Of a stretch of DNA of 64,000 bases, positions 5,379 to 57,299 are shown in pieces. Source of the DNA: Chlorops oryzae (taxonomy: Eukaryota; Arthropoda; Insecta; Diptera; Chloropidae). The position numbers and the translations under genes were made by a program. Under the pieces are notes generated by a model. That model worked only from the letters and a program-made list of their open reading frames with translations. It searched no databases and was not told the origin of the DNA. The stretch is taken from NCBI GenBank assembly GCA_020466095.1, contig CM035806.1:90886511-90950510 (forward strand), given 5' to 3'. The number at the start of each line of letters is the position of its first letter. The stretch's first letter is position 1.

Positions 5379-6410
5379 TCATAAGGTTTCTGGCAATTCG
5401 ACCGGAAACAGACAGAGCTTTGTAATCGGCCTTGTGATGATACCAAATTGTGTTTTTACGTCGACAATGCGCACAAGACCATCATCCCCCGGGTGGACTT
5501 GAACGATCCTTCCTTTTCTCCATTCAAATGGGGGCAGCTGAGCATCCAGGAGGACGACGAAATCGCCAACCTTTAAATTCGGCTGCGGCATCTTCCATTT
5601 ATCTCTCTTATGTAGATTAAGGAGATATTCCAATTTCCACCGTTGAGCGAATCGGTGATGTAGAATTTTCACTTTCTCCCATCGCGTAGTGAGCGGCAAA
5701 TCAGCGTGTGATTCTTCAGGCCAAGCGGTAAATGGAGCTCCTCGGAGGAAGTGCCCAGGTGTCAGTGCCAATAGGTCTGACGGATCATCTGACATTGGCG
5801 TGAGCGGACGCGAGTTCAAGACTCCTTCGATTCGTGCCAATAACGTGGCGAATTCTTCAAACGAGAATTTGTGCGGACCAGCTACCTTGACGAAGTGGAT
5901 CTTGAAGCTTTTGACCGCCGCCTCCCATAATCCGCCCATATGAGGTGCGTGGGGCGGGATCAGATGCCATTCGAACCCTTGCAGGGAATATTTCCGTTGG
6001 AGGTCGTCAACAGCACTCGAAACGAATTTAGCGAGTTCGGCGTCTAAAGCATTTTTGGCGCCAATGAAATTCCGGCCGTTGTCGGAGAAAATTCTCTTAG
6101 GGAGTCCCCGGCGTCCTATGAACCGATCGAATGCGGCCCGGAAAGACATAGTGGACAACTCCGAGCATAATTCGAGGTGAACTGCTTTAGTGGCGAAACA
6201 CACAAACACGCTGACGTAGCCCTTGAGATATGGTGCCGTCCGATGGGTGGAAGTTTTGATGTCAAACGGTCCGGCAAAGTCGACGCCGGTATGCGTAAAC
6301 GGTAGCGACAACGTTGATCTTTCAGCTGGCAGAGCGGCCATCATCTGAGTCTTGACTCGTTGCTTATGGATGGTGCACGTATGACAGCGAGTGATGCAGC
6401 TCTTTATTTT
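5379..6410 (-). pseudogene. pol: BEL-1 integrase
   Basis: This is the integrase that joins element DNA to the host chromosome. The zinc-binding HHCC part (LHGGAQ..., then CITRCHTC) straddles the nonsense codon at 6411-6413. The catalytic core shows GVDFAGP (Asp), FSDNGRNF (Asp) and GLWEAAVK (Glu). A basic C-terminal region with GDFVVLLD and KGRIVQVHPG follows; this small beta-barrel is typical of BEL/Pao integrases. The frame is the same as the upstream RT/RNase H frame and ends at 5379. Without the upstream TGA it would be the C-terminus of one polyprotein. Confidence 0.95.
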
Positions 6411-8545
6411 TCATTTTAATCGCGCGATGTAAAAATTCTGTCGCACCATGCGAAACATGAGTTGAGCGCCGCCGTGCAGGAGCGTTTTGTGTGCGAAGTC
6501 CAAATACAAGCGGCAAAACGTGGAGGCGGCAGGTATGATAATCGGATATCTCTCATCTATCGTAAGATCTGCATGAATAAGCCGGCCATTGACGCGCAGC
6601 AGCCCATCATCGTCAAGCATAGGATTCAGCGATAACAGCTCGCTCTTCTTTCCGAGTGGTTTTCCTTCACTGAGATCCTGATACTCGAGTGGATAATGAA
6701 ATGTTTGTGAAAATAAAATTAAACGGTTTCTCACCATCGTCAGCTCATCTTGCGACAGTATAAGTGTGTTGGGACTTGGGACCATCTCTCTTCGCGCTTG
6801 TCTGTAGAAACGCATTACGTAGCCGATGACTCGAAGCGCTCGATCATACGATGAAAATCTGGCGAGAACGTCTTCCGATTCTGTAATGACGGTGAATACG
6901 GCCGCCTTCCGCTCTTCAAGAGTTGTAGATGATGGGGGTTCAAACTGGGGCCATTTCTCTGGCGATTCTACGAGCCATGACGGTCCTTGCCACCAAAGCG
7001 AATTTTCACAGAGATCCTGAGCTAGCATCCCTCGGGTACCCAAATCAGCTGGATTGTCTCGCGATCGCACATGGCGCCATGGAGTGTTGCCAACGTTGGT
7101 CAGAATTTCGGAAATTCGATTGGCGACGTAAGTTTTCCATGCATTCGGAGGACGTTTCAGCCATGCCAGCACGATCGAGGCGTCTGACCATAGAACCGTT
7201 TGATGTTCCTGAATATGAAGCTGAGCGTTGATCGATTTTACTAGTCTGGACAGAAGAACGGCGGCGCAGAGCTCGAGGCGCGGTAGGCTGACAGTTTGCA
7301 ACGGAGCCACCTTAGATTTCGCCGTAAGCAAGTGAGCATAAACTTGGTTGGGACTCTCGATGCGGAGGTAGAGTGCTGCACAATATGCTCGCTCCGAAGC
7401 ATCGCAGAATCCGTGGAGCTGAACTGTGACCGTAGGATCGTAGTGCACCCATCTCGGAATTTGAATTTGCTCGATGAATGCCAAATCAATGACGAAAGCA
7501 TTCCAGCGTTCCAAAGCCTCACTCGACACCCGCTGATCCCATTCAGTGCCTTCGAGCCACAGCTGTTGCATAAGAACCTTGGCGCGGATGATGATCGGCG
7601 TAAGCCATCCTGCTGGGTCGAATAGTTTTGCGATATCAGACAAAATTTGTCGCTTGGTCGTCGACGATGCAGCAGAATGAGCGCTCAACTTGTATGAGAA
7701 ACGATCAGCAATGGCATTCCAGCGGATCCCCAACATTTTTGCGTCGCTGGCAGACTTGAATTTCAAAAATTCGGCATCCAGCAGGTGTGAAGATGCGACA
7801 TCCTTTAATAATTCGGCATGATTCGCGGTCATCTTCTTCAACGGAAATCCCGCCGAGCCGAGCGTGCTAATGAGTTGCGTTTTTGCTGTACATGCCGCTT
7901 CGAGTGTATGGCCGCCTGATAGGACGTCGTCGACGTACGTTTCATTCTTCAAAATGAATGCTGCTTGAGGAGCGTCGTGCGCCGAGTCGTTTACTAATTG
8001 ATGAAGCGTTCGAATGGCCAAATATGGAGCACAGTTGACTCCAAACGTCACGGTTTTCAATTCGTAATCCTTTACCGGTCCAGTCTCTTCCTCGCGAAAT
8101 AGGATGCGTTGAAAGGCTCGATCCTCTTCATGCACCTGTATCTGTCGATACATCTTCTCTATGTCGCCGTTAAACACGAATCGATAGAGCCTCCAGTTGA
8201 GCAAAAGGATGACCAAATCCGCTTGGAGCACCGGTCCGACATGAAGCACATCGTTCAACGACAAGGATGACGAGGTTTTCTGTGACGCGTTGAAAACAAC
8301 GCGCACTTTGGCGGAGGTACTCTCTGGCTTCATCACTGCATGATGGGGAAGATAAAAAGAAAGGAAATTATTTTCGTGTATAATTTCAGAATTGGAGCAT
8401 GGCTCCATGTGATCATATTGTAGATACTCTGCTAACACGGAATTATAAGTGTCGCGCATAAGAGGCTGCTTCGCAAGTCTTCTCTCCAGGCTCTGGTATT
8501 GCGTCAGCGCTCCGAATCGCGATGCACCTAAGCGTAATAAAATTC
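6411..8545 (-). pseudogene. pol: BEL-1 reverse transcriptase and RNase H
   Basis: Reverse transcriptase copies the element RNA into DNA and RNase H degrades the template. The RT region shows FNASQKTSSSLSLNDVLHVG, the fingers/palm start typical of BEL/Pao, and the YVDD catalytic box (YVDDVLSGG). RNase H shows FCDASERAYCAAL, LPRLELCAA, LWSDAS and RDNPADLGTRG, so all four acidic positions are present. The frame ends at TGA 6411-6413 inside the integrase zinc-binding region. At its 5' side (about 8530-8545) the upstream gag-pro frame ends and this one takes over. LGASRFGAL and LERRLAKQPLM, typical of the RT entry, are in the new frame, so a one-base indel lies there. Confidence 0.95.
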
Positions 8546-10618
8546 GACCTTAAATGGTAGACGTACGACATATCTACCTTCGGAATTCTTAACGGTGGTT
8601 TGAGCATAAAGCTCTTCACAATAAACGTCCTCTGAAAGAGGCGGAGGGGAATGTGGAACCTCTTCTTGTTCCCAAAACGATTTGAGTAGCTCGGAGAGCG
8701 ACTCATGGTTGTCTCCGGAGGAGACCTGCGTCGTAAACGCTTCGGTGGATTCGCTGGCGATGGCCCCACTCAAATACCACCCGAACACTGAATTTTGTGC
8801 TACGAGACTCCCTCCGACATTCATTCTGACTCCAGGTCGTAGTAATTTAGGCATAATATCGGAGCCGATGACCATATCGATGCGGCCTGGATTCATGAAG
8901 TGGGGGTCGGCGAGCTCAAGCGATGAAAACTCTTGGGGATCCATGTTGGAGACCCGTTTGGCTGGAAGCCAATTTGTCAACTTTGGTAACACCACGGCGT
9001 CGATCTGATCCTCGAACGTAGAACGAGGCGATGCGAGCATGATGGAACACTCTTTTTTTGCAACTTGGGTGCACTGCCCGCCCATACCGGATACGTTGCA
9101 CACTTTGGGCGTAGTTGGAAGATTCAATTGGAGCTGCATCCGTTCCGTAATAAACGTCCTTTGAGATCCTTGGTCGAGAAGGGCTCGCACTAAAAAGCGC
9201 TCTCCTTGATGCAATATGTGTGTGAGCGCGGTCGGCAACAGTACTTGCGTCTGGCTAATCGATACATGCGCATGTGCTTGCGAAGTGGATGATCCATCGG
9301 CGGTTACAAAATTCGAAGTCTTCGGTGGCGCGGAAGCCTGCGCCGGATGGCTCGTCGGAGACGGGCCGTCAGCCTGAAGAGGCGTCGGTGTGGTTGAAGA
9401 TCCTTGACCCTTTTGTGTAGCCGTTGGATTCGGAAAATGAAGAAGCGTATGATGCGATTTTCTGCACTTTGCGCAACGGAAGGTACTATTACACTTTGCT
9501 TTTTGATGACCAGTCGAAAGGCAGTTGAGACATCGATGGTGCTGCGAAACAGCTTGGACACGTTCGTCGACCGACATATTGAGAAACACATCACATTGGC
9601 GTAGAGGATGGTTGCCGCGACAGAGGACGCAGACTCCATTGGTCCGCTCTTGGGCGAGAAACACGTTCGTCGAAGGCACTTCGGATTTTACAGCGGGATG
9701 GGGAGCCTCCAATGCATTAAAGCTGGAAAGGCGTTCAACAACTTCATATCGCTTAGTCAAAAAGGCATTCATTTGTGGCCACGTTGGCACCTCTCGATGT
9801 GACGCCAATGACTGTTCCCAATGTGCGATCGTTTGCGCCGGAAGACGCCTGGAACAGAAATGAACGAGCAGGGCATCCAAAATATCCACGACTCCATGAC
9901 TCTTCAGCATCTTGAGGCAATCGTTGACGGTTGTTTGTATGCGCAGGATTCCTTCCGGCGTTTCATCTTGGATAGCAGGCAGGTCGCATAAATTTTTTAA
10001 TTGTTGATCGACGAGGATGCGTTTGTTCTCGTATCGCGCCTTAAGAGCCTCCCACGCATTCGTAAAGTTGTCGCCACACAGTGGATAGCCTTAAACGATA
10101 GCACCCGCGGCTCCCGTCGTCTTGCTGCGAAGATGGTATAACTTTTGCACTGGTGGCAGCCGAGGGTGATTGACGTAAACCGCGGTGAACATGTCTCGAA
10201 ATGCTGGCCATTCACTATAGCCACCAGCAAAAACTTCAGTATCACACGGTGGTACCCTGATGAAATTGTCTTCTCCATGAAAGTCGTTAGGTGGAGGAGT
10301 TACCCGAGTGCTCGTCAGCGGTGGATGCTGGGGGGTGATTTCTCGTAGCATCTCCTGAAGCTTGGCTCTGGCTATCATCTGAAGATCGCGACACTCGTGA
10401 TAACTAATTTCCGCTGAATCGGCCGCCTCTGGACTCCAGGTTCCTTGATCGACCGCTGCTCGATACGTTTGACGCACTTCATTCCAGTCGTACATCAGTT
10501 GTTCGATTTTAATCTCCAACAATTGCTCGCTTTGATTCATTGGATCGCTGTTCATGGCTGCATCGCACATGTTCTTGAGCTCAGCTACCGCGGAGTGAAA
10601 ATGCCGTAAGGGATCCAT
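8528..10618 (-). pseudogene. gag: BEL-1 Gag and aspartic protease
   Basis: Gag starts at the Met at 10618 (MDPLRHFHSAV). The capsid region includes FAGGYSEWPAFRDMF, a hallmark of BEL/Pao Gag (DUF1759). A TAA at 10091-10093 breaks the frame; the same frame reopens and runs to 8528. Two CCHC-like knuckles (CVLCRGNHPLRQC, CLNCLSTGHQKAKC) and a third CRKSHHTLLH cluster follow. After a Pro/Ser/Thr linker comes the retropepsin motif ALLDQGSQRTFI (DUF1758 type) and a flap-like GSDIMPKLL region. The frame is lost near 8530. Gag assembles the particle, and the protease would cut the polyprotein. Confidence 0.94.
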
Positions 10619-11670
10619 ATTGTTTACGGATGTTGATCACGAAACCCGATTCTAACGAGATGACTGTCCGAAGAATTCAATGCAAGCTCGATCAAATTCA
10701 CCGTAAAAATGAGAGCAACTTCAATTATCGCCGGCTTTTGATGTGAACTGGATGCCTGTTTGTGAAAAAGAGATAAAAACCTCGTCCGAAAAGGAACAAT
10801 ACAAATTATAAAACGGCAACCGCAGTGCGTATAGGCGACCAATGCCTACCGTAGCGTACCTCAAATTTATTTACCTTAACCTTCGCAACACTCCACAAAT
10901 TTCCTGCAACCCCAGATTCAATATTAAAAATCCAAACGAGTTAATAAATTTTATTTAAATCAAATTCCAATCTTTCAAAATATCAGTAAAATCAACAGCT
11001 CCAATTTAAGAAATTGCAGTACGCCAAGAGACTTTCAATAGCGATCGACAGAACGACCGAACGACCGAACTTCAAAGCGACGCTTTCAGTTGCCTTGTCA
11101 CTGCGGCGAAAAGCGTAAAAACGAGAACTTGTGCGTGTGTGTGGTTGCAGGCGAACCGCGATTGCAATAGCTGTGGCAAGTTCGGCCGCACAAATTCCAC
11201 TCGATCACGTTGGATGTTCGATGCGACACACTGCGTGGCAACTGACCAGCTCAACAATTGCCCCGTACGAAGTTTGACTAGAAGTACAGGCGCTATTTCA
11301 AAGCAAAGCAATGAAACAAAAAGGAAAAACAACCGCAAGGCCTTGATGCTGGCTGTGTTCGTTCGCAAAAAAAGGGAACGAGAAATCTAACGCTGCTGGC
11401 AGACCCGTTATATGGCTGTTGGGCTGCGATATTCGTTGTGCACAAAAAACCACCACCAAACGAGGCACGGATGTGCGAGCGAGACAGACGATACGAATAT
11501 AAAGAGAAAGGATGAGTCGAAACGGTGATGTGTTTCACGTGCTTGGATCGTGTTGCCCTTGACTTTTCTGTAGGGCAAATAGCGGAAAAGCCTGACGCAC
11601 ACGTGGCGTACTTTCTCCCTTCCTACTAAGATTGTAAGATTGATCCACCGGAGCCGATTCCATCGCCAAA
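10619..11670 (-). other. BEL-1 5' untranslated leader with primer site next to the LTR
   Basis: About 1.05 kb between the gag start and the 5' LTR. No conserved frame was recognised. On the minus strand the first bases after the LTR are TT then TGGCGATGGAATCGG, a site starting with TGG as expected for priming by a tRNA 3' end; the tRNA is not identified. Short tandem GAACGACC units occur at 11049-11070. Confidence 0.7.
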
Positions 11671-12209: not shown

Positions 12210-12798
12210 AAATTGGACGTTTCGCATAACAGTACAGATGTCACGACAGCGTTTGGTGCGCGTTCGGCTTCGGAGAATAAAGCAAATAGTTCCAATTGGA
12301 ATAACGGTTCCGGCAATTGAAGTAGAAGTGACGAGCAAAATAGAACAAAAGATCAAAACGTCGTACGAAAGAAAAAACGAGCAAATTTGAAATGCTTCAT
12401 TTGCGGAAAAAAGGGGCATTTCGCCGCAGACTGCAAAGTGGAGAAGAAAGAGAAAGATCCGAAATCGTTTGATGTTTTCTCTGCTTCAATACGGCGACAG
12501 CGTAGTGACCGAGAATTTTGCGTCGACAGCGGAGTAACGTCACATATTTGTGTTGATCGCGACATGTTCGTGGAAATAAAGGAACACAATGAAAAGGTTC
12601 AGTTAGCTGGAAAATACAATTTGGAAGCTAAAGGCATTGGTACAGTTAAAGTTAAAACAATTAATTTTGAATTTATATTGAAGAACTGTTTATACGTGCC
12701 GGACATGGAAATGAATTTTATTTTGAAAACGGTTGTGCGACAATCGTAGATTTGAGTGATAATTCGGTTGTACTGAAGGCGTTCAAAAATAACAATTA
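12210..12798 (+). pseudogene. gag-pol: copia Gag zinc knuckle and protease (continuation after BEL-1)
   Basis: This continues the copia polyprotein from 3987. It contains the single knuckle CFICGKKGHFAADC (pattern CX2CX4HX4C) and, about 45 residues later, the retropepsin site FCVDSGVTSHICVD. The family usually has DSGA at the active site; here it is DSGV. A TGA sits at 12318-12320. The frame shifts near 12722, after which ENGCATIVDLSDNSVVL resumes in another frame. The copia sequence stops at about 12798, where gypsy-1 begins. No copia integrase or RT was found further right. Confidence 0.88.
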
Positions 12799-12941
12799 CA
12801 CGGGAAACGCCCAGCGGCCCAGTCTCGGCCGGTAGACTGGAGTGCCCAAAAAGAAGATTTAGAACGGCCAAACCCTGCCCTGGGGAACAGCCACAAACCA
12901 GGAGCAGGAGGAGGGGAGAGCCAGGGTGCAAAGAAGATCCC

Positions 12942-14195
12942 TTGGACAGCCTAGGCACAGAACGACGGGAAGCGCCAGGGAGCCAAGAAGTGCCTCTGGA
13001 CAGTCTGGGAACAAGAAAACTAAGACCAAAATGGGGAAAATCGATAAGAGAGATGCCGACGGAGGAAATCGAAAATGAAATAAAAGAAAAAATGAATATA
13101 GACATTGGTCAGGAGACTAATGCAATGAAACCACGAAAAAAGGGCAAACGAGTGACTTTTAAAGACACAGTTAAAGTGTTTGTATACCCAATATGCGAGA
13201 TGGAAGCTGCCGGTACAAAGGCAAAGTTGGAAAAATGGAAAGAAAACGCAAGACGAATGAAAAGGTTATATATCAATGCATGGCTGATGTTTTTCTTTCT
13301 TCTAAGCAAGCTTCTCCAAATCACGAAACAACTTTTGGCGGTTGAATTCAATGGGCCAAAAGGGGATGAATGCGTTCAATTATCCTGCGAGCAGGCTATC
13401 AACGACGAAATCGGAATAGTAGATTTGCAAGACAAAGAAGAACCGGATTGGATCGCTACAACTGCGACTCGAGAGGACGATGCGCACATCGAAATACCCT
13501 GTAGCCAGGCTATCGACGGCAGCATCACCCTATTGATCGATTCAGGGGCAGAGGCAAGTCTGGTAAAAAGAGAGGTACTGATAGAAGACGTTCCGATAAA
13601 CCGGAAGGATACGAAGTCCTTGAGAGGAGCGTTTGGAGGACATTCGACTACGATTGGATCAATAAAAGTGAAGCACAAGGCAATTCCAGCATTGGAGATG
13701 GTGATGCACGTAGTGCCACGAAATAGCAGCCTGCCAGCAGATGGACTCCTGGGGAGGGATATGCTCTGGAACAGGACTATACTAGATTCAATCAGAAAGG
13801 AGTTGACCTTCAAAGAAAAAGGTAATCTGGTAGCCACAATGCCTCTAAGGATAAGAGGAGAGAAAATCTATACCGCAGAGACGATTAGAATCCCACCAAG
13901 ATCCACGAGGATAGTACGCATAAATACAGGACTACTCACGGAGGAAGAAGTCGTACAGAAAAAACTGTTAGAAGAACATATTTATATTGGAGAAAGCCTC
14001 ACGAAACCCAAAAATGGTATCGGGTTCGTTACAATACTTAACGCGTCGGAAAAGGACACCGAAATAAAAGAAGGAATGGAGGTAAAATATTCGTTAATGA
14101 AGGAGTACGAGATTGTAAGCATTTCAGAAATAAATTCACCCAATAGTAGCCAAGAAGACGAAAGGACGAATCTGCTAATCAATTCCCTAAAATAA
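12942..14195 (+). pseudogene. pol: gypsy-1 Gag/Pol N-terminus with aspartic protease
   Basis: A 417-residue frame ending at TAA 14193-14195. The retropepsin motif LLIDSGAEASLV lies near 13533-13565. A later DGLLGRDMLW matches the second conserved G-R-D motif of gypsy proteases, and GEKIYTAETIRIPPRSTRI is typical of the protease-RT linker. The next frame (14205 onward) is in phase, so the TAA is a nonsense lesion in what was one pol. The first ~90 residues are charged and unlike a capsid. The Met at 12942 is just the first in frame and not a proven start. Confidence 0.88.
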
Positions 14196-16823
14196 GAGGA
14201 GAATTTGAATGAAGAAGAAAGACAGTCCATAATTGCAATTTGCAAGGACTATTCCGATGTAATTCATCTAAAGGGCGATAAATTGAGTTATACAAGTGTG
14301 CTCAAACATGAAATACCCACGGAAGCGGGAAGGGCACCGATAAATATAAGACAATATCGCTTGCCGGAAGCACATAAGGAGGAGATAAATAAGCAGGTGG
14401 GAGAAATGCTGGATCAAGGCATAATTTCTCCAAGCAAATCACCATGGAACGCACCTTTTATCCTGGTCCCAAAGAAAACAGGACCGGACGGGAAAAATAA
14501 ATGGCGACTGGTGGTGGACTTCCGCCAGCTAAACGAAATTACAGTAAAGCAGGTATTCCTGATAACACGAATTGATGAAATACTCGACCAACTGGGTTGT
14601 AGTCGATATTTTACGACCTTGGACCTGGCAAGTGGATACCACCAGGTACTGGTAGATGAGAAAGCTAGAGGAAAAACAGCTTTCAGCACAGGCTTAGGGC
14701 ACTATGAATTCGTGCGAATGCCATTTGGACTCTCAGGAGCGTCAGCGACTTTTCAACGAATTATGAACAGTGTCCTGACTGGTCTACAAGGAGTCGACTG
14801 TTTCGTCTACCTGGACGATATAGTCATTTACGGGAGCAGCCTAGAACAACACAAACTCAGACTCCGAAATGTGCTGCAAGCCCTGCGAGAAAACAAACTT
14901 AAAATTCAGACGGAAAAATGTCAGTTTTTGCGGAAGGAAGTGGTCTATTTGGGTCACAAGTGTTCCGACCAAGGCGTCCGACCAGACCCTGGGAAAGTAG
15001 AATGCGTGGAAAAATTCCCAATTGCCAAAAACAAGAAGGAGTTGCAGTCTTTTTTGGGTTTAGCAAACTATTACAGGAAGTTCATACAAAACGCAGCAGA
15101 ACTCTTGATGCCATTAACATCTCTACTGAGAAAGGACAGCGAATTTGTGTGGACAGAGAAATGCGAGAATGCGGTAGAAAAAATTAAAACGGCAATCACC
15201 AACCCACCACTATTGAAGTACGCAGATTTCAATAAGCCATTCCTGTTAACAACGGATGCAAGTAACGAAGCACTAGGAGCGGTACTCTCACAAGGCGAGC
15301 CGAGCGACGACCAGCCGATCGCGTTCGCAAGCCGAGCATTAAGCGCAACTGAGAAACGATACTCAACAATCGAAAAGGAATTCCTTGCCATTGTGTGGGC
15401 GACAAAAAATTTCCGTTGCTACCTCTTAGGCCGCCCCTTTACGGTTTACACAGACCACAAACCTCTAAAAGGCATAGCAAATCTAAAGGATCAAACATCC
15501 CGATTGGCGAGGTTCCGCCATAAGCTCTCGGAATTTGATTTCGAAATCTATTACAAGGCTGGAAAATATAATTTAAACGCAGACGCAATGAGCCGATTAC
15601 CATATGAAAATAATCTTGTGTCAGTGGTAACAAGAGCACAAACACAGTCAAAAATAGAGCAGAGCGATGAAAATACGGAGACAAAGAAAAGCAGAAATGA
15701 TTCGGAAGATACAAACCCCACAGATCACTCAGAGACAGAGGATTTAGCAGAATTTTTAAGACAGAGAAAGGACATCGAAGAGGTGATTAAAAATTTTCAC
15801 GATGGGCCATTAGGTAGTGACAAGGGAGCTATAAAAACATATTTCCGCATTCGACGGCAGTACAAGTGGAACGGCATGCATAGAGAGATTCGAAATTATA
15901 TAAAAAACTGCGAAAAATGCCAGCGGAATAAATGCTCAAAAGTAGAAAGAATGCCCATGGTACTCACAGACATAGCTCATGGCCCTTTCTATAAAGTTTA
16001 TATGGATATGGTAGGCCCCCTACCGGAAACATCGAGAGGAAACAAATACATCTTAACATTCATAGACGATTTTTCAAAATTTTTCATCTGCACAGCTATT
16101 CCGGATGCAGAGGCGGCAACAGTGGCAAAAGCTTTTTTCAACGAGATAATATCAAAATTCCAGATACCAAAGGTTTTAATCACGGATAACGGCACAAACT
16201 TTACATCGAAATTATTTAAGGAAGTTTGCCAAATTCTTGGAATCAAGAAATCCCAAACTTCACCATACCACCCCCAAGCCAATGGTGCTCTTGAAAGGAG
16301 TCACCGACCTCTTGCGGAATTTCTCCGAAATTTCGTCAATGAGGATGGCACATATTGGGATGAATGGCTGCACCACGCTATGCACGTGCATAACAACACA
16401 GTACATTCATCCACAAAACAAACACCTTGCAAAATTATTTTTGGATTTGAAGCCGATATTCCACTTAACTTAAAAAGAAGACCGGAGCCACTGTACAACA
16501 CAGACGATTTTTCAAAACTATTAAAATACCAAATCCAGCGCACCCATCAGTTAGTACGAGAGAACCAAAAAATAGCTAAAGAAAAATCAAAGCGTTACTA
16601 CGATAAGGGCCCGAAAGTAAGAGAATTTTAGACGGGAGACAAGGTGTGGCTAAAGAATCAAAACAGGAAAAATAAATTCTCCCCGATTTGGGAACGCCCT
16701 TATGTAATCCAGTCAATCCCATCGCCAGTTAACGTTAAATTGAAAATAAAAGGGAGGGAAAAGACCTTCCACCGAAACTTAATAAAGCGACATCATCAAA
16801 AAGAACAACAAACAAAACAATAA
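14196..16823 (+). pseudogene. pol: gypsy-1 reverse transcriptase, RNase H and integrase
   Basis: RT motifs: NKWRLVVDFRQLNEIT, FTTLDLASGYHQV, MPFGLSGASATFQR and the catalytic box FVYLDDIVIYG near 14805. RNase H follows: LLTTDASNEALGAVLSQ, KEFLAIVWA and YTDHKPL. The integrase has the zinc-binding NCEKCQRNK, then YMDMVGPLP (Asp), LITDNGTNF (Asp) and PQANGALERSH (Glu). A TAG at 16629-16631 breaks the frame just before the C-terminal GDKVWLKN domain, which continues in phase to the natural stop at 16821-16823. With the TAA at 14193 there are two nonsense codons. Order and motifs match errantiviruses of the gypsy/17.6 group. Confidence 0.96.
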
Positions 16824-16935: not shown

Positions 16936-17181
16936 ATGCCAACCAAGGCATTTACAAGAAATGCGAATATAGCAGTTCCTCGAGGTAAAGGAAAAATTTT
17001 TTTTTGTGCATGCATTTCACACAATGCCACTTCGATCGGAATCGAACTCCCGTCAGCTAAAAATATTTTTCAAATCGATACAAACCTCAACCACTCAGCA
17101 TGTGTTGCAATAAAAAAATTTAAACCATCAAAAGCGATATACAAGGAAGGTCGAGCGGAACGCAATGTCAAGCAGAATTAA
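16936..17181 (+). CDS. Small unrecognised ORF between gypsy-1 pol and the Ulp1-like ORF
   Basis: An 81-residue frame that overlaps the start of the next ORF by 17 bases. It is lysine-rich with a short Cys-containing segment (FFCACISHN) and matches no family I know. It may be the N-terminal extension of the Ulp1-like protein in a different frame, or non-coding. Confidence 0.2.
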   Translation: MPTKAFTRNANIAVPRGKGKIFFCACISHNATSIGIELPSAKNIFQIDTNLNHSACVAIKKFKPSKAIYKEGRAERNVKQN

Positions 17182-17954
17182 TAAAATAAATTGGAATTTG
17201 GATAGAGTCAATGAGACAAATTGGGTGAACGACGACCATATCAACACCCTGCTGCCATGGTTGATGAGAAAGGCTAACAACAAGAAGATTCACGTATTCG
17301 ACACGCACTTTTATGCATGCGCAACCTCATCAAAGGAAAAGTCACTGCCGGCACAAATACGTTTGAACGGGTTTCTAAAAAGAGTGAACATCTTCGAGTG
17401 CGAGAGCCTAGTGATCCCAGTACACGAGCGAAACCACTGGATGCTGGCAATCGTAACATGGCCAGCGATCTACGTACTGGACTCCCTTAAACCGCACGAT
17501 GCAAAGAAAATCGCGGAAAAAATAAGGTCAATTGTGCAATGGGAGGCGAAACTCGATGCCGCTAATATATCCGGAATGCAGCCAACAACAAAATCTAAAT
17601 GATTGCGGAATATATTTGCTGCGGTTTGCGGAAAAATACCGAGACGTCGTAAGTTTAGAACGAGCCTTTTTGCCCCGAGACGCCTTTGTGGAGGAAAGTA
17701 AAATTTCAAGAAAATTCCTCGACCAATTAATAACAGAGCAAAAGATGACTCGCGCACAATGGAATGAGACGGAGGAAGAGCAAAAGTTCTTGCAGAATGA
17801 AATTCAAAGAATTAGAGCGAATTGTAAACCAGGGAATCGAAAGTACTGTAAAATAATATATAAGACTAAAATATATTCCGTATTTATCTCACGCAAAGGG
17901 GATGTTAGGTATAAACAATTTAAATGCGCAATAACATATCAACATGCAAATTAA
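17165..17954 (+). pseudogene. Ulp1/SENP-like (C48) cysteine protease encoded in gypsy-1, frameshifted
   Basis: The first frame (17165-17602) contains WVNDDHINTLLPWL, the hallmark entry of Ulp1 domains, then VFDTHFYA, then IPVHERNHWMLAIV with His91 (codon 17435-17437) and IYVLDSL with Asp106 (17480-17482). The second frame (from about 17540 to 17954) contains QQQNLNDCGIYLLRF. The Cys codon is at 17604-17606 and the oxyanion-hole Gln sits six residues before it. Together these give the His-Asp-Gln-Cys set of the C48/adenain fold. A one-base indel near 17540-17565 separates His/Asp from Gln/Cys. The frame then runs through a basic tail to 17954. The family cuts ubiquitin-like modifiers or viral precursors; the substrate here is unknown. 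It sits exactly between pol and env on the same strand. Confidence 0.85.
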
Positions 17955-18097
17955 TAATAACAAAAAAAAAATGGTAGAAATAGAGTGTTCTTTTAAGAAT
18001 ATTTTCAAACACATTGTTTTATTTGTCCAACGGGAATAGGTGGAGAATAGTGGAGGAGCCTTTGTGAAAGCGACAAAGGGCGTAGATGTGTGTGCAA

Positions 18098-18121
18098 ATT
18101 CCGTTTTCTTTTTCTTTTCAG
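18098..18121 (+). promoter_or_regulatory. Candidate splice acceptor for gypsy-1 env mRNA
   Basis: A long pyrimidine tract, TTCTTTTTCTTTTCAG, ends at 18121, right before the env reading frame. Errantiviruses make env from a spliced RNA, and a similarly placed acceptor precedes the env remnant of gypsy-2 (ending at 62000). Confidence 0.55.
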
Positions 18122-19616
18122 GAAAAAAGAATCATCTTGGGGTTAATAACAACAGTCACCTACGGACGACTTCAAATAACGCCAGTAGACGAACAAGGAG
18201 GATTTGTAAAGATCCACATAAAAGAAACAGAAATTATAGAGGATTTCTACACCGTGCTACATGTGATACACCCAGCCGAAATCCTGAAGGTCATCAACAC
18301 AATCAACGAGTATGTCGATACGGTAGAAATAAAAAACAGAGAGCTGCTGCTGGCAGAAATTAGAACAATCAGATCAAAACTTAGCTCCATAATACCAAGG
18401 GAGAACGATCGATCTCGAAGAGGACTTCTGAACGCAGTAGGTACGGCCGCCAACTGGCTATTTGGCGTCATGGACGACGACGACCGGAAAGAAATCCTAG
18501 AGCACCTGACATTGGCAGACTAGAATAGCCATAAAGCCATAAAAGGGTTGAACGAACAAATATACATAAACGATTTTTTCAACGAAACAATTTCAACGAT
18601 AAAAAGGACAATGGAAAAGGATCTGGGCATGGTTAACGGAGTATTCACCACAGTAAAAAGGCAAAACGATGAAATCACTAAACACCTCCGTTATCATGAC
18701 CAGATGCAAAAACTAAAAAGTATAGAGGAAAAGGTCAACATCATCCAGGACAGTATATCATCAGAAAAAAACGGGGTGGCGCATCCCAACATACTAACGA
18801 CGGAGGAGATAGAAAGATTCAAAATGGACTATTACAAAGTAAAACTAATCACAGTGCGAGTGATGACATACGTAAAAAAAAGCACTAATAATCGCAGTAA
18901 AAATCCCAAGAAACTTCCGGAAAATAGAAGTAAAATGGTTAACCCCTCTTCCAAACCTGAATCACAAGGAAATAATAGAAAGGGACGAACATATCACAAC
19001 AATAGATAACACAACTTACAGTTTCACGGAAAATGCGGTACGAAAGGAATTGAAAAAGAGTAGAAACTGCGTTTTTCTTAACACATGTAGACTCCAGTAT
19101 AACAACAAAATCTCCATACAATACATAGACGAATCAACACTACTAATAAAAAACGCGAGGCAAACGCAGATCACACACGATTGCGACAAGCGCAACATTA
19201 CACTTAACAAGGACGTACTCATCTCCTTCTCCAATTGCACCATAATCATTCAAGACCAAAATTTTACGAATACTCAGATCATAATGAACGAAAAATATTT
19301 CTACCAAGAAGACGAAAAGAACAATATCAAATTCAACGATACCATCAACTTCGAAGAAATTCAAATAAAAAGTGTTAAAAACCGAAAACTCATTGAAGAA
19401 TTAACATTACACAGAAATATATCATATGGCATAAGCACCACGCTCGTCATAGCAGCAATAATAGGAGTCATATTCCTGTGTGTCTGTCTCCGAAACAAAA
19501 GCGTTAATATCAGAAATAGCGTGGAACTCTCAGAAAGGCAACCACAAAGAAGAACACGTATTCGGACACTTAATAAGCAATTTAGAGAAAAAGCAGCGAA
19601 CGCAACAAACATATAA
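18122..19616 (+). pseudogene. env: gypsy-1 env: fusion-type glycoprotein, broken
   Basis: An errantivirus-type envelope protein, related to baculovirus F fusion proteins. Visible features are a furin-like site RSRR followed by GLLNAVG (the fusion peptide start, near 18411-18435), a heptad-rich middle, a Cys-containing ectodomain, a C-terminal hydrophobic anchor near 19420-19490 and a basic cytoplasmic tail. Two breaks are present: a TAG at 18521-18523 shortly after the fusion peptide, and a frameshift at the A-run near 18871-18881, after which the frame ending at 19616 carries the rest. No signal peptide is seen in the open frame; it may come from an upstream exon by splicing. Confidence 0.85.
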
Positions 19617-20001
19617 AAAAAAAGCAGAAGAAATACCCACAGCAACAAGCGCACATAAGGAAAAACAGCAAGAAGAGGAAAATTTTCACACCCGCATCAG
19701 ACAAGGGTGCGGCGCAAAGAGCCTAACGTCAACATAAATTAAAAGATCCAAAGGCGTATGAAATTATTTATCAATATAATTTTATTATTAATTTTTTTAT
19801 TTTCTTTGCTTTTGAGTTCTATTTACGGTTTTTTTTTTTCCTTTTAATCCCATGGGTCGAGGATAAATCGGTATCGAAAAAAAAATTTTTTTCTTTTCTC
19901 TATCTTCGATCCCAAGGACACACGTGCACGCACGAAACATGCAGACACATGTGCAGAAAAAACAAGTAAGAAAGCTAAAGTCGGTCAAGCCCGACTTTGA
20001 A
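19617..20001. other. 3' tail of gypsy-1 and spacer, no gene
   Basis: The first ~120 bases follow the env stop and may be 3' non-coding sequence of gypsy-1, including a purine-rich GCAAGAAGAGGAAAA near 19669. No LTR could be paired. The remainder is T-rich. A 9-base inverted repeat (AAAGTCGG and CCGACTTT, 19977-19999) lies at the edge of the next element. Confidence 0.4.
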
Positions 20002-20900
20002 ATACCCAGCGTCCCGACATTATGAGTGCACTATGTTTTGCTTCTCTATTTGTGGGCATGGCAGTGGGAAGGCAACATAAATTATTTCCCTACACCTTTC
20101 ATTCGCCTTGGTGACCCTATGTTGCGAATTTGAAGCTTCTACGCCTTTTACTTCGGAAGTTACGAAAAATCTTCATTTGTGGGCGTGGCAGTGGGCGGGC
20201 CGCACAAAATTTTTTCCTACACCTTTCATTCGCCCTGGTGAACCTATGTTGCGAATTTGAAGCTTCTACGCCTTTTACTTCGGAAGTTATGAAATTTCTC
20301 TATTTGTGGGCGTGGCAGTGGGCGGGCTACATAAATTTTTGTTCCTACACCTTTCATTTGCCTTGGTCAACCTATGCTGCCAATTTGAAGCTTCTACGCC
20401 GTTTACTTCGGAAGTTACGATAAGACCTTATTTTTGGGCTTATTTGTGGGCGTGGATCGAGGAGGGCGGCGTCCATTTTTTGCCAAAGAATGTCCCTTTT
20501 CGTAGTTTACCAGCACACCAAATATCAATGGAATGTGTTGAGTGGTTCGCAAGTTACAAGCATTTTATTGAAAACACAATAAATTCATTTGTGGGCGTGG
20601 CAGTGGGCGGATGTCTCCCATTTTTACTTAGGATCATACTCGGATCCCGATATACCTGTGTGCCAAATTTCGACTTGATTGGTCCAGCCGTTTCGGAGAA
20701 GATCCGACCACGGACGGACGGACAGACGGACAGACGGACAGACGGACAGACGGACGGACGGACGGACAGACGGACATGTCTAAATCGATTCAGTTTTTGA
20801 TCCTGATCATTTCTATATATATTTTTCTATATCTCCGGAGCTTAATTCTCCCTGTTACAAGATTTGCACAAAACTAATATACCCCGCTTACGCTGGGTAT
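20002..20900. mobile_element. Non-coding dispersed element with 11-bp TIRs, 127-bp tandem units and GGAC minisatellite
   Basis: The ends ATACCCAGCGT (20002-20012) and ACGCTGGGTAT (20890-20900) are perfect inverted repeats. Inside, units marked by TGAAGCTTCTACGCC recur at 20131, 20258 and 20386, a period of 127-128 bp. Each includes GTGGGCGTGGCAGTGGGCGG. A (GGAC/AGAC)n minisatellite spans about 20709-20777. The general design is familiar from dispersed repeats in fly genomes; I do not assign a family name. No coding capacity is supported. Confidence 0.75.
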
Positions 20901-21659
20901 AAAAACCGAACAAAAAGGGTAAAGAAAAAGCATTTGCAAGCCAAATGCATGCTTGCACATGGTTAATAATCGAAGTAGAATATTTCCAATAATGCATTGT
21001 CGGGTTTATATATTTTTTTGTGTCTTCTACACTGCAATATTTTGACAAATCAGCACAAAACCTCAACCTTCATTAAAGGGGGGAAGGGGTAGTAGCACGA
21101 AGCACAAGTAATATAAAGAATCATGCCCCGTACAAAGCCTATAGAATAACAAACAAAAATCATTCACTTTACATTTCTCAACTCCAAAATATGTGAAAAG
21201 GAAGTCAGCAAAGTCTAATTAAGAATTGTATAAAAAGCATATGCAAATTTTATTCTTAAAAAAAAAAAGAGATTTAATGAAGTGCTTTGGATTATAAAAA
21301 AAAATATATATATATATTTAAGTCTTTTCATTTACACCTGCTATCCAATTTAAGAATATGATTTATGATTTAGAAACTGTAAAAAAAAAAAAAATATATA
21401 TTAATATCAAACAAAGTTTTCGATCCAATGAAAAAAAAAAAATTTAAATAAAGGAAAACAAATATTAAGCATGGTTTGAAAGAAAATATGAATTGAAACC
21501 CATAAAATATTGAATACCTAGTAATTCCATTAAGAAAAAAATTTTTAAGTAAAATATTGTCAATAGCGAAATGTTTAAAAACAATTTGAGCAAACATTAT
21601 AATAGTTTAAGGTAGAAAGTACAATTCTAAATCTTCTTCAAATCACTGAGATCCTACAC
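20901..21659. other. AT-rich stretch without recognisable gene
   Basis: It holds A and T homopolymers and a short TATATA run near 21305-21318. No conserved reading frame, repeat pair or RNA gene was recognised. Confidence 0.5.
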
Positions 21660-21868
21660 CGGAACAACAACAATCAAGACCCAACAACATTTACGGCATC
21701 AGCAACTATCAGCGCAAGCAAGCACAACAACAAGCGAATGATACAATAAGTTCGCCTATTGCAACAACAACAACAATCAAGACACAACAACATTTACGGC
21801 ATCAGCAACTATCAGCGCAAGCAAGCACAACAACAGGCGAATGATACAATAAGTTCGCCTATTGCAAC
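21660..21868 (+). repeat. Two tandem copies of a 103-bp CAACAA-rich unit
   Basis: The block from ACAACATTTACGGCATCAGC to GTTCGCCTATTGCAAC occurs twice with an offset of 103 bases and very few differences. It lies just upstream of a candidate polypurine tract and LTR. CAA-rich 3' regions are common in gypsy elements of the mdg1/412 type, so this may be the 3' end of such an element. Confidence 0.75.
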
Positions 21869-21982
21869 CACAGCAACAGGGTCAAGTACACCAGCACCAA
21901 CACCAGCACTATCAAAAGCAATATCAGACAACAACAGGGTAGCCACAACGATTTTTTAAATAGTCACGATGCTCGTGACTTG

Positions 21983-22942
21983 CGAGGAGGGGAGGGATGT
22001 TGTGAGTCAGAAAACGTCACGACATACGCTAACGTAACACTGCCAGCACTAGCGTCAACGGCACGCTATCAGCGCTAAGCCAAAAGCAGTGCAATAAATA
22101 ATGCAGCATAAACAAATGCAACGGCACCACTTCAACTCGACACCTAACACCTCCAACAACAACAGCACGAGCGAGCATGAAATCGAACGCCTCAACAAAA
22201 CAACAGAAAGAGACACTGTTACCGGAGACGGCAACAACAACAACAGAGTCTTGTAATGACAAACAGACCGCCGATATCAATGTCAACCGAGAATCGATCG
22301 TTCAAGGCCATCGATCGAAAGGGAAAGCAGGCAGACGAAAAGCGAAAGAACACGAGCCGCCGAGTCAGCATGTGGACCACACACAAACAAGGGATGTTTG
22401 CGGCATGCGTTTGCTTGTTCGTATTGCATTTCGTTTTGTACGTCTTTTGTGTGTGCACTTGGCTTGCATTAAACCGTACATATGTCGAATGGGTGATCGG
22501 CATATTTAGCTGATTGTAAATATATGGCACGACGATTAAATAGAAGACAACGGCACTTATGCAATCGCCGAAAAAGCCGAAATGCAGAATAGACGGTGAC
22601 CAAGGGACGCTTGCAGGGAGGTTAGCTGAAGAAGAAACCTATGACGCTAGCAACTATCGATATTGCGAAAGGAGCAATATTTAACTATAAAAGCAAAGTA
22701 CGATGGAGAAAAAGGGACTTATCATCGATTGGCACTCCGAGTATTAAGAGGATCTCAACTTTGGCGCACCTACTTACGAGCCAGGACGACAAAGTGTGGA
22801 TCTCAGAGTAAGCTAGGGAATTAGGGCAGTACAGTAAGCTAGAATAGAACGTTTGAAAAAGACTTTAATAAATGAACAATTATTACAACGAGAAAAGGAG
22901 TGTTTTATTTGGCAAAAAACTGAATCCTTGTTGGCGCTTACA
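21983..22942 (+). mobile_element. Probable 3' end of an LTR retrotransposon: polypurine tract and LTR
   Basis: The purine tract GAGGAGGGGAGGGA (21984-21997) is followed at 21998 by TGTTGTGAGTC, a standard LTR start. Downstream there are AATAAA-type signals (near 22096 and 22867). The right end is tentatively at GCGCTTACA (22942), where sequence turns abruptly into a BEL gag fragment. Only one LTR is present, so the boundary is inferred from that junction. The retrotransposon family is not identified. Confidence 0.55.
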
Positions 22943-24457: not shown

Positions 24458-25739
24458 TTAGGTGTAGTAAAAAGAAATCCATTATTTTTCCAATAGATGG
24501 CGTTATTTATCTGCATCTCGCGTTGTATAAGTCCGATCGTGTTCCGCTAGGAGGCATTAGAAAGATGACAGTTCCTACTAAAAAAGCTTTTTTGACACTT
24601 TTTTGATTGATGGATTCAGTTTTGTTTGAGAGCTTGTCAAAGATGGACATCAGCAAAGAGAAAATTCGCTACATTTTACAGTTTTTCTTCGATAAGGGAG
24701 AAAACGCAAGCCAGGCGGCTGAAAATGTGAATAGCGTTTATGGACCTAATACTGTAACAGCCAATCATGCGCAATTTTGGTTTCGTTGATTCCGTTCCGG
24801 TAACTTCGATGTCAAGGATGCACCACGCACTGGAAGGCCAATTGTCGAAAATGTCGATAAAATCATGGAAATTATCGAGTCCGACCGTCATGTTAGCACT
24901 GTTTCGATTGCAAAAGAGCTAAAGATTGCACAAAAAACCGTTTGGAACCATTTGAATAAGGCTGGATACACAAAGAAGCTCGATGTATGGGTGCCACACG
25001 AGTTAACGCAAAAAAACTTCATAGACCGAATTTCCATCTGCGAATCGCTGCTGAACCGCAACAAAATCGACCCATTTCTGAAGCGGTTGGTGACTGGTGA
25101 TGAAAAGTGGGTCACTTACGACAACGTCAAGCGAAAACGGTCGTGGTCGAAACACGGTGAACCAACGGAAACGGTGGCCAAGCCAGGATTGACGGCCAGG
25201 AAGGTTTTGCTGTGTGTTTGGTGGGATTGGCAGGGAATTATCTACTATGAGCTGCTCCCATACGGCAAAACTCTTAACTTGGAACTCTACTGTCAACAAT
25301 TGGACCGTCTGAAGGAAGCAATCGCCCATAAGCGGCCAGCTTTGGCCAATAGGAGAGGAATTGTGTTCCATCAGGACAACGCCAGGCCACACACATCGAT
25401 AGTGACTCGCCAGAAGCTCCGGGAGTTTGGTTGGGAGGTTCTTCTGCATCCACCTTATAGTCCGGACCTGGCACCAAGTGATTACCATCTGTTCCTGTCC
25501 ATGGCGAACAATTTTGCTGGTGAAACATTCGCTTCAAGAGAGGCTTATGAAATTCGACTGTCTCAATTTTTTGCTAATAGGAACGAGGGCTTCTATGAGA
25601 GAGGCATAATGCCTTTAAAATGGCAACAAGTTATCGAACAAAACGGCGCATATTTGACCTAAATCGGGTCATTCTAACTATCTTAAATAAAGCCCTCAAT
25701 TTAATGCAAAAATAATGGATTTCTTTTTACTACACCTAA
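24458..25739 (+). mobile_element. mariner element, copy 2 (mariner-2)
   Basis: 1282 bp with the same inverted repeats as mariner-1 (starting TTAGGTGTAGTAAAAAG) and TA target duplications at 24456-24457 and 25740-25741. It is about 98% identical to copy 1 by eye. It inserted at an unrelated site, so the two are independent insertions of one family. Confidence 0.97.
24610..25662 (+). pseudogene. mariner-2 transposase with a single nonsense codon
   Basis: The ATG at 24610-24612 (MDSVLFESL) is intact here, unlike in copy 1. The frame is open throughout except for TGA at 24787-24789, where copy 1 has CGA (Arg) within the DNA-binding half. Downstream it continues in the same frame through WVPHELTQKNF, TGDEKW, HQDNARPH and LAPSDYHLF to the stop at 25660. 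Compared with copy 1 it lacks six bases (two codons) in the RGIM-PLKW region near 25611. The C-to-T change plus the small deletion are the only obvious disabling differences. Confidence 0.96.
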
Positions 25740-55485: not shown

Positions 55486-57299
55486 CTAGATTAAAGTTGG
55501 ACTCAATTTACTAATTTGTATCTTTCTAGAGACCACCCATCCAAGTAGAGTTTTTTGAAGCACAGGCAGATCGTCGCGTAATCTGATTTGGCCTTCTGAC
55601 AGAATATCTAAAAATACTTCAGAACCAATCAATATATAAATTTTTTGACGATTATAAAACCATGGATCGGCAAGGGAAACATGTTCGGGAAATATTCCAT
55701 ATTTTTTCTGACAAATTAACATCTGGTTGATAATTTGTGATTTTCTTAAGCACATAAAATTCAGATTTGAAATCTCTACGCGAGATTTTACGCTTGAAAA
55801 AATCTTTTGGTTGATTGACGGATTACTTTCGCCGATGCCATGGATTTTATCGTTTGTGTTAAATCGATATAACTGTAAACGAGATGCGCAAGCTGCGGAA
55901 ATAAGATTAACTTGAGATCCCGATTCCAAGAGTGCTCTGACAGTAACTGGATTCCTAAAATTATCTTGCATTTCAACCAATGCAGTGGCGGGCAATATTA
56001 CATCTGTGTCGGCTTTTACATGTAATGTCGAAATTTCACCACTGGCGTGATTCAATGAGATTGATTTCTCATCGGTAATTGGATTTTGACTAGAAGGTTT
56101 TGGTTCAGATCGGTGTAACAATGAATGATGTGGCTTTGCACACATTCGGCGATGGGAGCTCTTGCAATTTGCAACAGAATGTCCCCTTTTTAGGCAATTC
56201 AGACAAAGGTGAGTCTGTTTTACAAATTCAAATCGTTTGTCAACTGGAAAATTTTTGAAAGTTGGACACAGGTATATATAGTGCGCTGCCGATTGACATT
56301 GTAGGCATTTCGATGTAGTTTCTTGAGAACATGCTAACGATGACTGGTTAGACGACCGTCCATTTCCTGTATTGTGTTTCGGCGTTTTAGGTTGGGGGGT
56401 TTTTTCGTGTTTTACTTCAAGTGATTGACAGCGTCGTATTAAAACCTTTGCACGGTCACTCCATGAAGGTAATGTGGAGTAGTCTTACTGATCGTTCCAT
56501 TTAGATTTTGTCCCAAAGTCTACTTTTGATAGCATTATATGAATTATTAACGCGTTTGTTACATCTTTTTCGTTTCCAAGTGAAAGAAGAGAATCATAGA
56601 TAGCCGACACTGTGTCTACTGCTTTACGTAAGTCTGAAGCGTTTGGCTTGACCATGCTTGGAATTTCAAATATCTGTGCAATACTGTCAAAAAAAATTAA
56701 ACATTTTTTGTCATGGCGCTCTGCTAACAGGCTTAGAGCTTTTGGGTAGTTTGCTTCAGTTATTTGAAAGGATTTTACCGTGAGCAACGCGTCTCCCGAC
56801 AAGCAGGACAACAAATTATTGAATTTTTCAATCGGAAGAGGAGTGGATTCGTCATGAATCATAGTCTTGAACGATGTTATGAAATTCTTGTATTCTGCAT
56901 ACTTGCCATCAAACCGAGTGAGTTTAAGATGAGAAAGCCTGTTGGCAGGTGCCGAATGTACGGTGCTTTCCATGAAGCTACTTTCGCGAACTCTATTTCT
57001 ACCAATCAGCGTCATGATTTTTGATCTTATACTAAAACATAATTCTTCAACATCGGTCGTTTGTCATCCGTGGGATTTATTTTTTCAATTTCAGTTTGAT
57101 AAGCCATGATCTGCTTTACATATGACGACACTATATCCAACCTGCATTCTAAGTCTATAGGATTCCAATTGGTTGCACTGTCAAGTGTATTTCTAATGCG
57201 AGTAATATTAGCCTTAGCTTGTGCTCGTTGTTGTTTTAATACTATAATCGAGTCTGGTACAGATGCTGCGGCTCCAGGTGCATTATCCTCTACAGGCAT
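55486..57299 (-). pseudogene. gag: BEL-3 Gag and aspartic protease
   Basis: Gag starts at the Met at 57299 (MPVEDNAPGAAASV). A coiled-coil-like N-terminus leads, after a stop at 57027, to KLTRFDGKYAEYKNFITSF (DUF1759) in 57015-56485. Another stop lies at 56485. The zinc region has CLQCQSAAHYIYLC, CLNCLKRGHSVANC and a CAKPHHSLLH cluster. The protease motif is ALLESGSQVNLI: the catalytic Asp of the usual LLDSGS is Glu here. The frame ends at 55486. Confidence 0.92.

Follow-up and report, generated by a model that had tools for sequence, protein, structure and literature searches.

The window analysed here is a stretch of 64,000 nucleotides from the fly Chlorops oryzae (contig CM035806.1, positions 90,886,511 to 90,950,510, forward strand), in which lies a decayed Ty3/gypsy retroelement carrying a gene for a Ulp1/SENP-like cysteine protease of family C48. 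A preliminary description of this sequence had placed the gene between the integrase and env of the element and had listed the motifs of a C48 peptidase. All of these motifs are present on the plus strand and the position is as claimed, the rve integrase domain lying within 14196-16631 and the Baculo_F env match within 18086-18523. The gene order on the plus strand is RVP aspartyl protease, reverse transcriptase (RT)/RNase H/integrase, C48 and env. The parts of the element, with expectation values (E) of Pfam matches in brackets, are listed below; numbers with L denote places elsewhere in the genome, and letters denote element families.

12777..14195, plus strand: open frame with RVP aspartyl protease (1.9e-4), the preserved 5' end of the element, ending at an in-frame stop
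14196..16631, plus strand: pol, with reverse transcriptase (RVT_1, 1.9e-33), RNase H, H2C2 and rve integrase (5.2e-18)
17165..17602, plus strand: 5' piece of the C48 gene with the Trp, His-Trp and Asp motifs (1.4e-10), likely ATG at 17165
17526..17954, plus strand: 3' piece of the C48 gene in a different frame, with the Gln and Cys motifs and a C-terminal extension, assigned by identity to L032 and L058
18086..18523, plus strand: N-terminal piece of env (Baculo_F, 2e-7), ending at an in-frame stop, with a furin-like RSRR read by eye
18524..19009, plus strand: middle piece of env, in the frame of the N-terminal piece (family B env aligns over 18134-18916)
18876..19616, plus strand: C-terminal piece of env in another frame, 39% identical to family B env, in which a hydrophobic stretch, probably transmembrane, was recognised by eye
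21998..22821 (end approximate), plus strand: 3' long terminal repeat (LTR), starting TGTTGTG after the polypurine tract GGAGGGGAGGGA, identified by short matches to the L036 LTR, one at its beginning and one further on

The start given in the preliminary description, 17165, coincides with the likely ATG of the C48 gene. The open frame of the 5' piece (17114-17602) matches PF02902 significantly, at E 1.4e-10 and 41.8 bits against a cut-off of 20.7, while the 3' piece (17526-17954) alone gives no Pfam match at E 0.001. The 5' piece is 94% identical to the C48 of L032 and the 3' piece is 93% identical to L032 and 95% to L058, in both of which C48 is a single open frame; against L036 the two pieces are 53% and 45% identical. 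In the window the frame changes near 17.55 kb, a feature absent from the preliminary description, and the catalytic His, Asp, Gln and Cys are kept in order, split over the two pieces.

The window copy is dead, since its C48 gene is frameshifted near that point, pol and env carry stops, and the element is truncated, with no gag match in the window (queried with the L036 and family B gag proteins) and no 5' LTR found, self-comparison of the window yielding no LTR pair. The in-frame stops in pol, on which the preliminary description was silent, lie at 14193-14195 and 16629-16631, and the frame is open again from the latter on to 16823. Env has one in-frame stop and one frame change. The 3' LTR, recognised via that of L036, begins 2.4 kb past env, and the intervening region (19617-21997) holds tandem repeats of 127 nt (20043-20424) and 103 nt (21663-21868).

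Related genes were sought in the same genome by a Pfam C48 search, in which 150 of 513 candidate places were scored, all 150 lying above the cut-off. The best scorer, L001 (162.5 bits), we take to be the host SENP gene. Besides L001, 46 of the other 149 scored places were read, a non-random sample picked partly by rank and partly for diversity (L023 holds two). RT, integrase, protein tyrosine phosphatase (PTP) or env of a Ty3/gypsy element stands beside C48 in 44 of these 46 copies (for L039, in the adjoining stretch L044), so that the gene appears neither as an independent host gene nor as a transposon with boundaries of its own, two outcomes which the preliminary description had kept in view. 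The exceptions are L003, a short stretch whose C48 is 98% identical to that of family A and which has another element's integrase on the opposite strand, and L027, whose C48 is 96% identical to that of L026 and whose env match is only weak. Pfam values for relatives with C48 in one frame are 3.6e-21 (L006), 2.1e-20 (L024), 5e-17 (L033), 1.1e-16 (L032) and 8.8e-16 (L036), and the curated cut-off is exceeded in all eight relatives scanned. A chance match of motifs is ruled out by the Pfam match together with the related copies across the genome. The insertion of a host gene or unrelated transposon at the window site is likewise ruled out, because relatives elsewhere carry C48 in the same position: it lies just 3' of integrase in all eight copies of the window's type (family W) that were read. 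We regard it as almost certain that the C48 open reading frame (ORF) is a gene of gypsy elements. LTR elements bearing it have inserted recently, their LTR pairs being 100% identical over 664 bp in family W (L036, where the match continues until the stretch ends), 99.7% over 948 bp in family A and 99.5% over 754 bp in family B.

Both the place and the strand of C48 differ between families, and four main arrangements were found: gag-pol-C48 (A), pol-C48-env (W), pol-PTP-env-C48 (B) and pol-env with an antisense C48 (C). Assigned by C48 similarity and neighbours, the copies read comprise 19 of A (including L003), 13 of B (including L027), eight of W, five of C and one of E (L037, where C48 follows env on the sense strand). 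Family A consists of an LTR, gag (a frame of 379 amino acids, aa), pol (one frame of 1067 aa), C48 (a frame of 322 aa) and a second LTR, with no env match in the stretches read. In family W, env follows C48 in the window copy, in L036 and in L057, where a deletion joins them; in L031 and L032 the alignment with the window extends as far as the beginning of the env frame, and the remaining four W stretches end sooner. L015, which lacks integrase, was considered as a splice product and rejected: the acceptor-like site of C48 is not where its gap ends, and we read the gap as an ordinary deletion.

Family B has the order integrase, PTP, env, C48. The PTP was seen in five of its 13 places:

L024, 1-1974; L034, 1951-2799, minus strand; L026, 1490-2170; L018; L025: classical protein tyrosine phosphatase, 3' of integrase

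L020 and L030 are deleted at this region, and the remaining B stretches are too short or too decayed to judge. The PTP shares one frame with integrase in L024 (658 aa) and in L025 and has a separate frame in L026; in L024 it matches PF00102 at 7.3e-73 and has the motifs HCSAGVGRTG and WPD. Its best database match is a fish protein (33%), followed by a Cotesia protein (37%). In a tree of 25 proteins (22 of the 120 matches listed were included), the three PTPs from transposable elements (TEs) form one clade, which falls in the half of the tree with the Cotesia, Microplitis and PTPN9-like proteins and outside those groups. The Cotesia and Microplitis proteins in the tree are presumably of bracovirus type.

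In family C, the antisense C48 lies just past env, tail to tail with it (L029, L033/L041, L039/L044, L042 and L043). L033/L041 has open frames for both C48 (279 aa) and env (529 aa), about 100 bp apart; no LTR pair was found for L033 in the stretches fetched. At L042 (408-630), a TTTCAG acceptor marks where similarity to L041 sets in, from which L042 is read as a probable reinserted spliced env RNA. We use "errantivirus-like" by gene content, the trees having been built without named errantiviruses: the window copy has pol and env with the 3' LTR only, L036 has two LTRs, and the env of family C matches PF07253 at 5.6e-19.

Between subfamilies, C48 is under purifying selection. The ratio of nonsynonymous to synonymous substitutions (dN/dS, Nei-Gojobori, bootstrap ranges in brackets) is well below 1 in the comparison across copies that the preliminary description had suggested: 0.131 (0.08-0.19) in W for L032/L031, and in A 0.115 (0.07-0.17) for L006/L017, 0.172 (0.12-0.25) for L017/L021 and 0.195 (0.13-0.28) for L006/L021. 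For comparison, pol of A gave 0.103 (L009/L017), PTP 0.125 (L024/L034) and env 0.109 (L024/L040), the remaining env and PTP pairs being saturated or too close. Of seven close within-family pairs, six gave 0.75, 0.81, 1.17, 0.62, 0.42 and 4.9, the last from a count of 0.5 synonymous differences, and the ratio of the seventh is undefined; such values are to be expected if most changes stem from decay after insertion. Among distant pairs, which are saturated, dS is not finite for W L032/L036 or for either C pair, and three B pairs give 0.17-0.38 at a dS above 1.5. The 5' piece of the window copy gave 0.21 (against L032), 0.19 (L058) and 0.29 (L054), and its 3' piece 0.32 (0.11-1.05) against L032. 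The active site (His, Asp, Gln and Cys in order) is kept in 21 of 23 open frames, and C48 proteins merely 24-33% identical to that of L032 still retain it. In the same pair of A subfamilies (L006/L009 versus L017), dS is 1.2 in C48 and 0.49 in pol, which suggests recombination between element families.

The TE C48 protein is about 275-300 aa long and consists of the catalytic domain followed by a conserved C-terminal extension of about 100 aa. Ten aligned TE proteins share an invariant Trp, His-Trp, Gln and Asp-Cys-Gly, and we take their two Trp to be those of the SENP Gly-Gly tunnel. A profile of these ten proteins compared with PDB finds SENP7 (5.6e-34), SENP2 (1.1e-28) and SENP1 (3.9e-28), as well as SENP5, Ulp1, Ulp2 and SENP3 strongly and SENP8 weakly (3.5e-5). 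Adenain (1avp) is not matched (E 1.5), leaving an adenain-type protease unsupported beside the value for SENP7; on this comparison of sequences, a protease of SUMO type is favoured over a processing enzyme of adenain type.

The extension, absent from the L001 frame, aligns between family A and the errantivirus-like set (hhalign 96%, E 3e-9), ten column-shuffled controls reaching at most 1.1%. In the C48 tree, the 12 TE proteins group together (85/81), with the nine errantivirus-like ones at 96/96, apart from L001, itself a long branch. The integrase tree separates A from W, B and C at 100/100. Neither tree settles the order within W, B and C, so the two do not conflict; the C48 branches are the longer. 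A single ancient acquisition with later relocation would fit, and so would transfers from one lineage of elements to another. A protein database search, which needs shared five-residue words, returned nine matches with alignment A1 (fungal, plant and metagenomic) and one metagenomic match with A3, none of them close, and of 24 pattern matches in IMG/VR none was confirmed as a relative.

As to expression, C48 in the sense families is predicted to be made from its own spliced subgenomic mRNA, like env. A polypyrimidine tract and CAG precede the start codon of C48 by 136-148 nt in three copies of A (L006, L017, L019) and by about 58 nt in two of B (L034, L040), with a possible site in L026. In family C, the protein would be encoded by an antisense transcript containing a small intron:

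L033, 1450-2616, with L041, strand opposite to env: antisense C48 gene, open frame, predicted intron after the ATG

Upstream of the L033 frame the predicted junctions read ATG/GTAAGC ... TTCTAG/, and L039, whose protein is about 53% identical, has ATG/GTAAGT ... TTTACAG/ at the same place; L029 is unreadable at this position. Retrotransposition does not remove an intron that is antisense to the genomic RNA, so that conservation of the predicted intron favours a genuine antisense gene in family C.

Other elements are found in the window. Just 5' of the truncated element, at about 12250-12700, a zinc-knuckle and protease-like reading (CFICGKKGHFAADC) was seen by eye, which suggests a Copia fragment. 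The remainder are:

5379-10636, minus strand: BEL/Pao element (Peptidase_A17, DUF1759, DUF5641)
24790-25662, plus strand: mariner-type transposase (Transposase_1)
56485-57063, minus strand: second DUF1759 fragment

Taken together, we favour the view, at a probability of roughly 0.55, that C48 is an accessory deSUMOylase gene, long resident and under selection in several Ty3/gypsy lineages, of which the window ORF is a decayed copy. The proposal in the preliminary description of a gypsy lineage with a captured Ulp1/SENP-like protease finds support in the profile match, in the synteny of family W and in dN/dS. Judged by its sequence, the protein is probably a SUMO protease. Such an enzyme would remove SUMO from host or element proteins, and this could blunt SUMO-dependent silencing or restriction of the element and so aid its transcription and retrotransposition. 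Nuclear Piwi silencing operates in somatic gonadal cells. Env-bearing fly elements are expressed in these cells (PMC11952523), and Panx, a fly piRNA silencing factor, works via SUMOylation (PMC13195609). By this analogy, we favour counter-silencing as the use of C48, though at less than even odds. Family A keeps C48 without an env match, so C48 need not serve env.

Several points weigh against an accessory deSUMOylase of this kind. All copies were located through C48 itself. The likeness to SENPs is one of profiles, L032 and the presumed host SENP being 19% identical over their alignment, with local matches of 21-32%, and C48-like folds include deubiquitinases, deneddylases and acetyltransferases. 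The monophyly of the TE proteins is based on the shared extension and on a support of 85/81 in a tree whose host branch is long, and there may have been several acquisitions. A catalytic residue is changed in L031 (Asp to Glu, with the ATG lost) and in L038 (Cys to Tyr). No clear acceptor-like site precedes C48 in the other sense copies looked at. In L039 a further ATG follows the acceptor, in the part 3' of the predicted intron, so that splicing is not required for a start there. Finally, the piRNA link is drawn by analogy with flies.

The strongest alternative is that the protease acts on SUMO or ubiquitin attached to element proteins or restriction factors, in Gag, integrase or Env traffic, and not on chromatin silencing. 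Its enzymology would be identical to that of the favoured accessory deSUMOylase, the constraint on C48 in family A resembles that on pol (0.115 versus 0.103), and Ulp1 and OTU domains in Ginger transposases have been proposed to act in transposition itself (PMC2836005). The separate ORF, its shifting positions and its occurrence on either strand show, however, that C48 is not tied to one structural protein, and we hold this alternative to be a real contender that is nevertheless probably not correct. It is improbable that C48 is an adenain-like enzyme for the maturation of Gag, Pol or Env precursors. Adenain-type proteases do process precursors in adenoviruses, and are thought to do so in Polintons, and the window gene does lie between pol and env, but the profile matches SENPs and not adenain, an aspartyl protease domain is kept in the window element and in family A, furin-like sites were read by eye in Env, C48 is present in family A without an env match, and in family C it is antisense. 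That C48 is a functionless passenger, derived by a single insertion from host SENP exons or a different transposon and since copied with the element, is scarcely credible: although the window copy is broken and foreign DNA is often inserted in retroelements, dN/dS is 0.12-0.20 between subfamilies, the active site persists in the proteins 24-33% identical to L032, the TE proteins do not closely resemble the presumed host SENP, and the gene is retained across several element lineages.

Among known systems, Ginger1 elements likewise associate a gypsy-type integrase with a Ulp1 (PF02902) domain, replaced by OTU in some (Bao et al. 2010, PMC2836005). Ginger1 differs in being a cut-and-paste DNA transposon with Ulp1 at the C-terminus of the transposase; the elements described here have RT, RNase H, LTRs and a separate C48 ORF, which rules out a Ginger-like DNA transposon (inverted repeats were not searched for), and the domain in frame after integrase in family B is a tyrosine phosphatase. 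Ulp1/C48 genes also occur in Mutator-like elements and oomycete Cryptons, with function unproven, but these are DNA transposons of mostly other hosts without LTR, RT or env (PMC2836005, PMC3212892). The small accessory ORFs of MDG1-group elements with sORF2 lie 5' of gag, unlike those of the C48 elements (PMC11952523). Among the matches listed in a literature search, viewed as titles and the starts of abstracts, no Ulp1/C48 or PTP gene in LTR retroelements was found; Repbase Reports was not searched. Ulp1 in transposons is known already from Ginger1, Mutator and Crypton, and its occurrence in LTR elements may be new.

The elements resemble errantiviruses such as gypsy and ZAM, and MDG1-group elements, in having LTRs, gag, a pol that comprises aspartyl protease, RT, RNase H and integrase, and a Baculo_F/Gypsy-type env that is probably made from spliced RNA; to our knowledge, errantiviruses have no C48, PTP or antisense gene. 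With the SENP/Ulp deSUMOylases (SENP1, 2 and 6/7, and the presumed host SENP) they share the C48 profile, the His/Asp/Gln/Cys set and both Trp, whereas the TE proteins are short and carry the extension that the L001 frame lacks. Insect retroelements are kept in check by piRNA-guided silencing, which in flies acts via SUMO. We know of hardly any countermeasure against it that is encoded by an element, and with a SUMO-protease-like gene of gypsy elements that is under selection and has moved recently, this question becomes directly testable. The antisense gene of family C, known from sequence alone, recalls HBZ of HTLV-1, also antisense at a retroviral 3' end and with a spliced start, although the HBZ product is unrelated to C48; we know of no HBZ-like antisense regulatory layer in Metaviridae. 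A broader picture, which we consider speculative and rather unlikely, would be of insect endogenous retroviruses with a host-regulation toolkit, comprising a deSUMOylase and in one family an integrase-fused PTP, that would switch off SUMO-dependent piRNA and heterochromatin silencing as well as host signalling, the antisense spliced deSUMOylase of one lineage forming an HBZ-like layer. The varied positions of C48, its sense and antisense placement and the added PTP suggest that retroelements acquire host-interaction genes in the manner of large DNA viruses.
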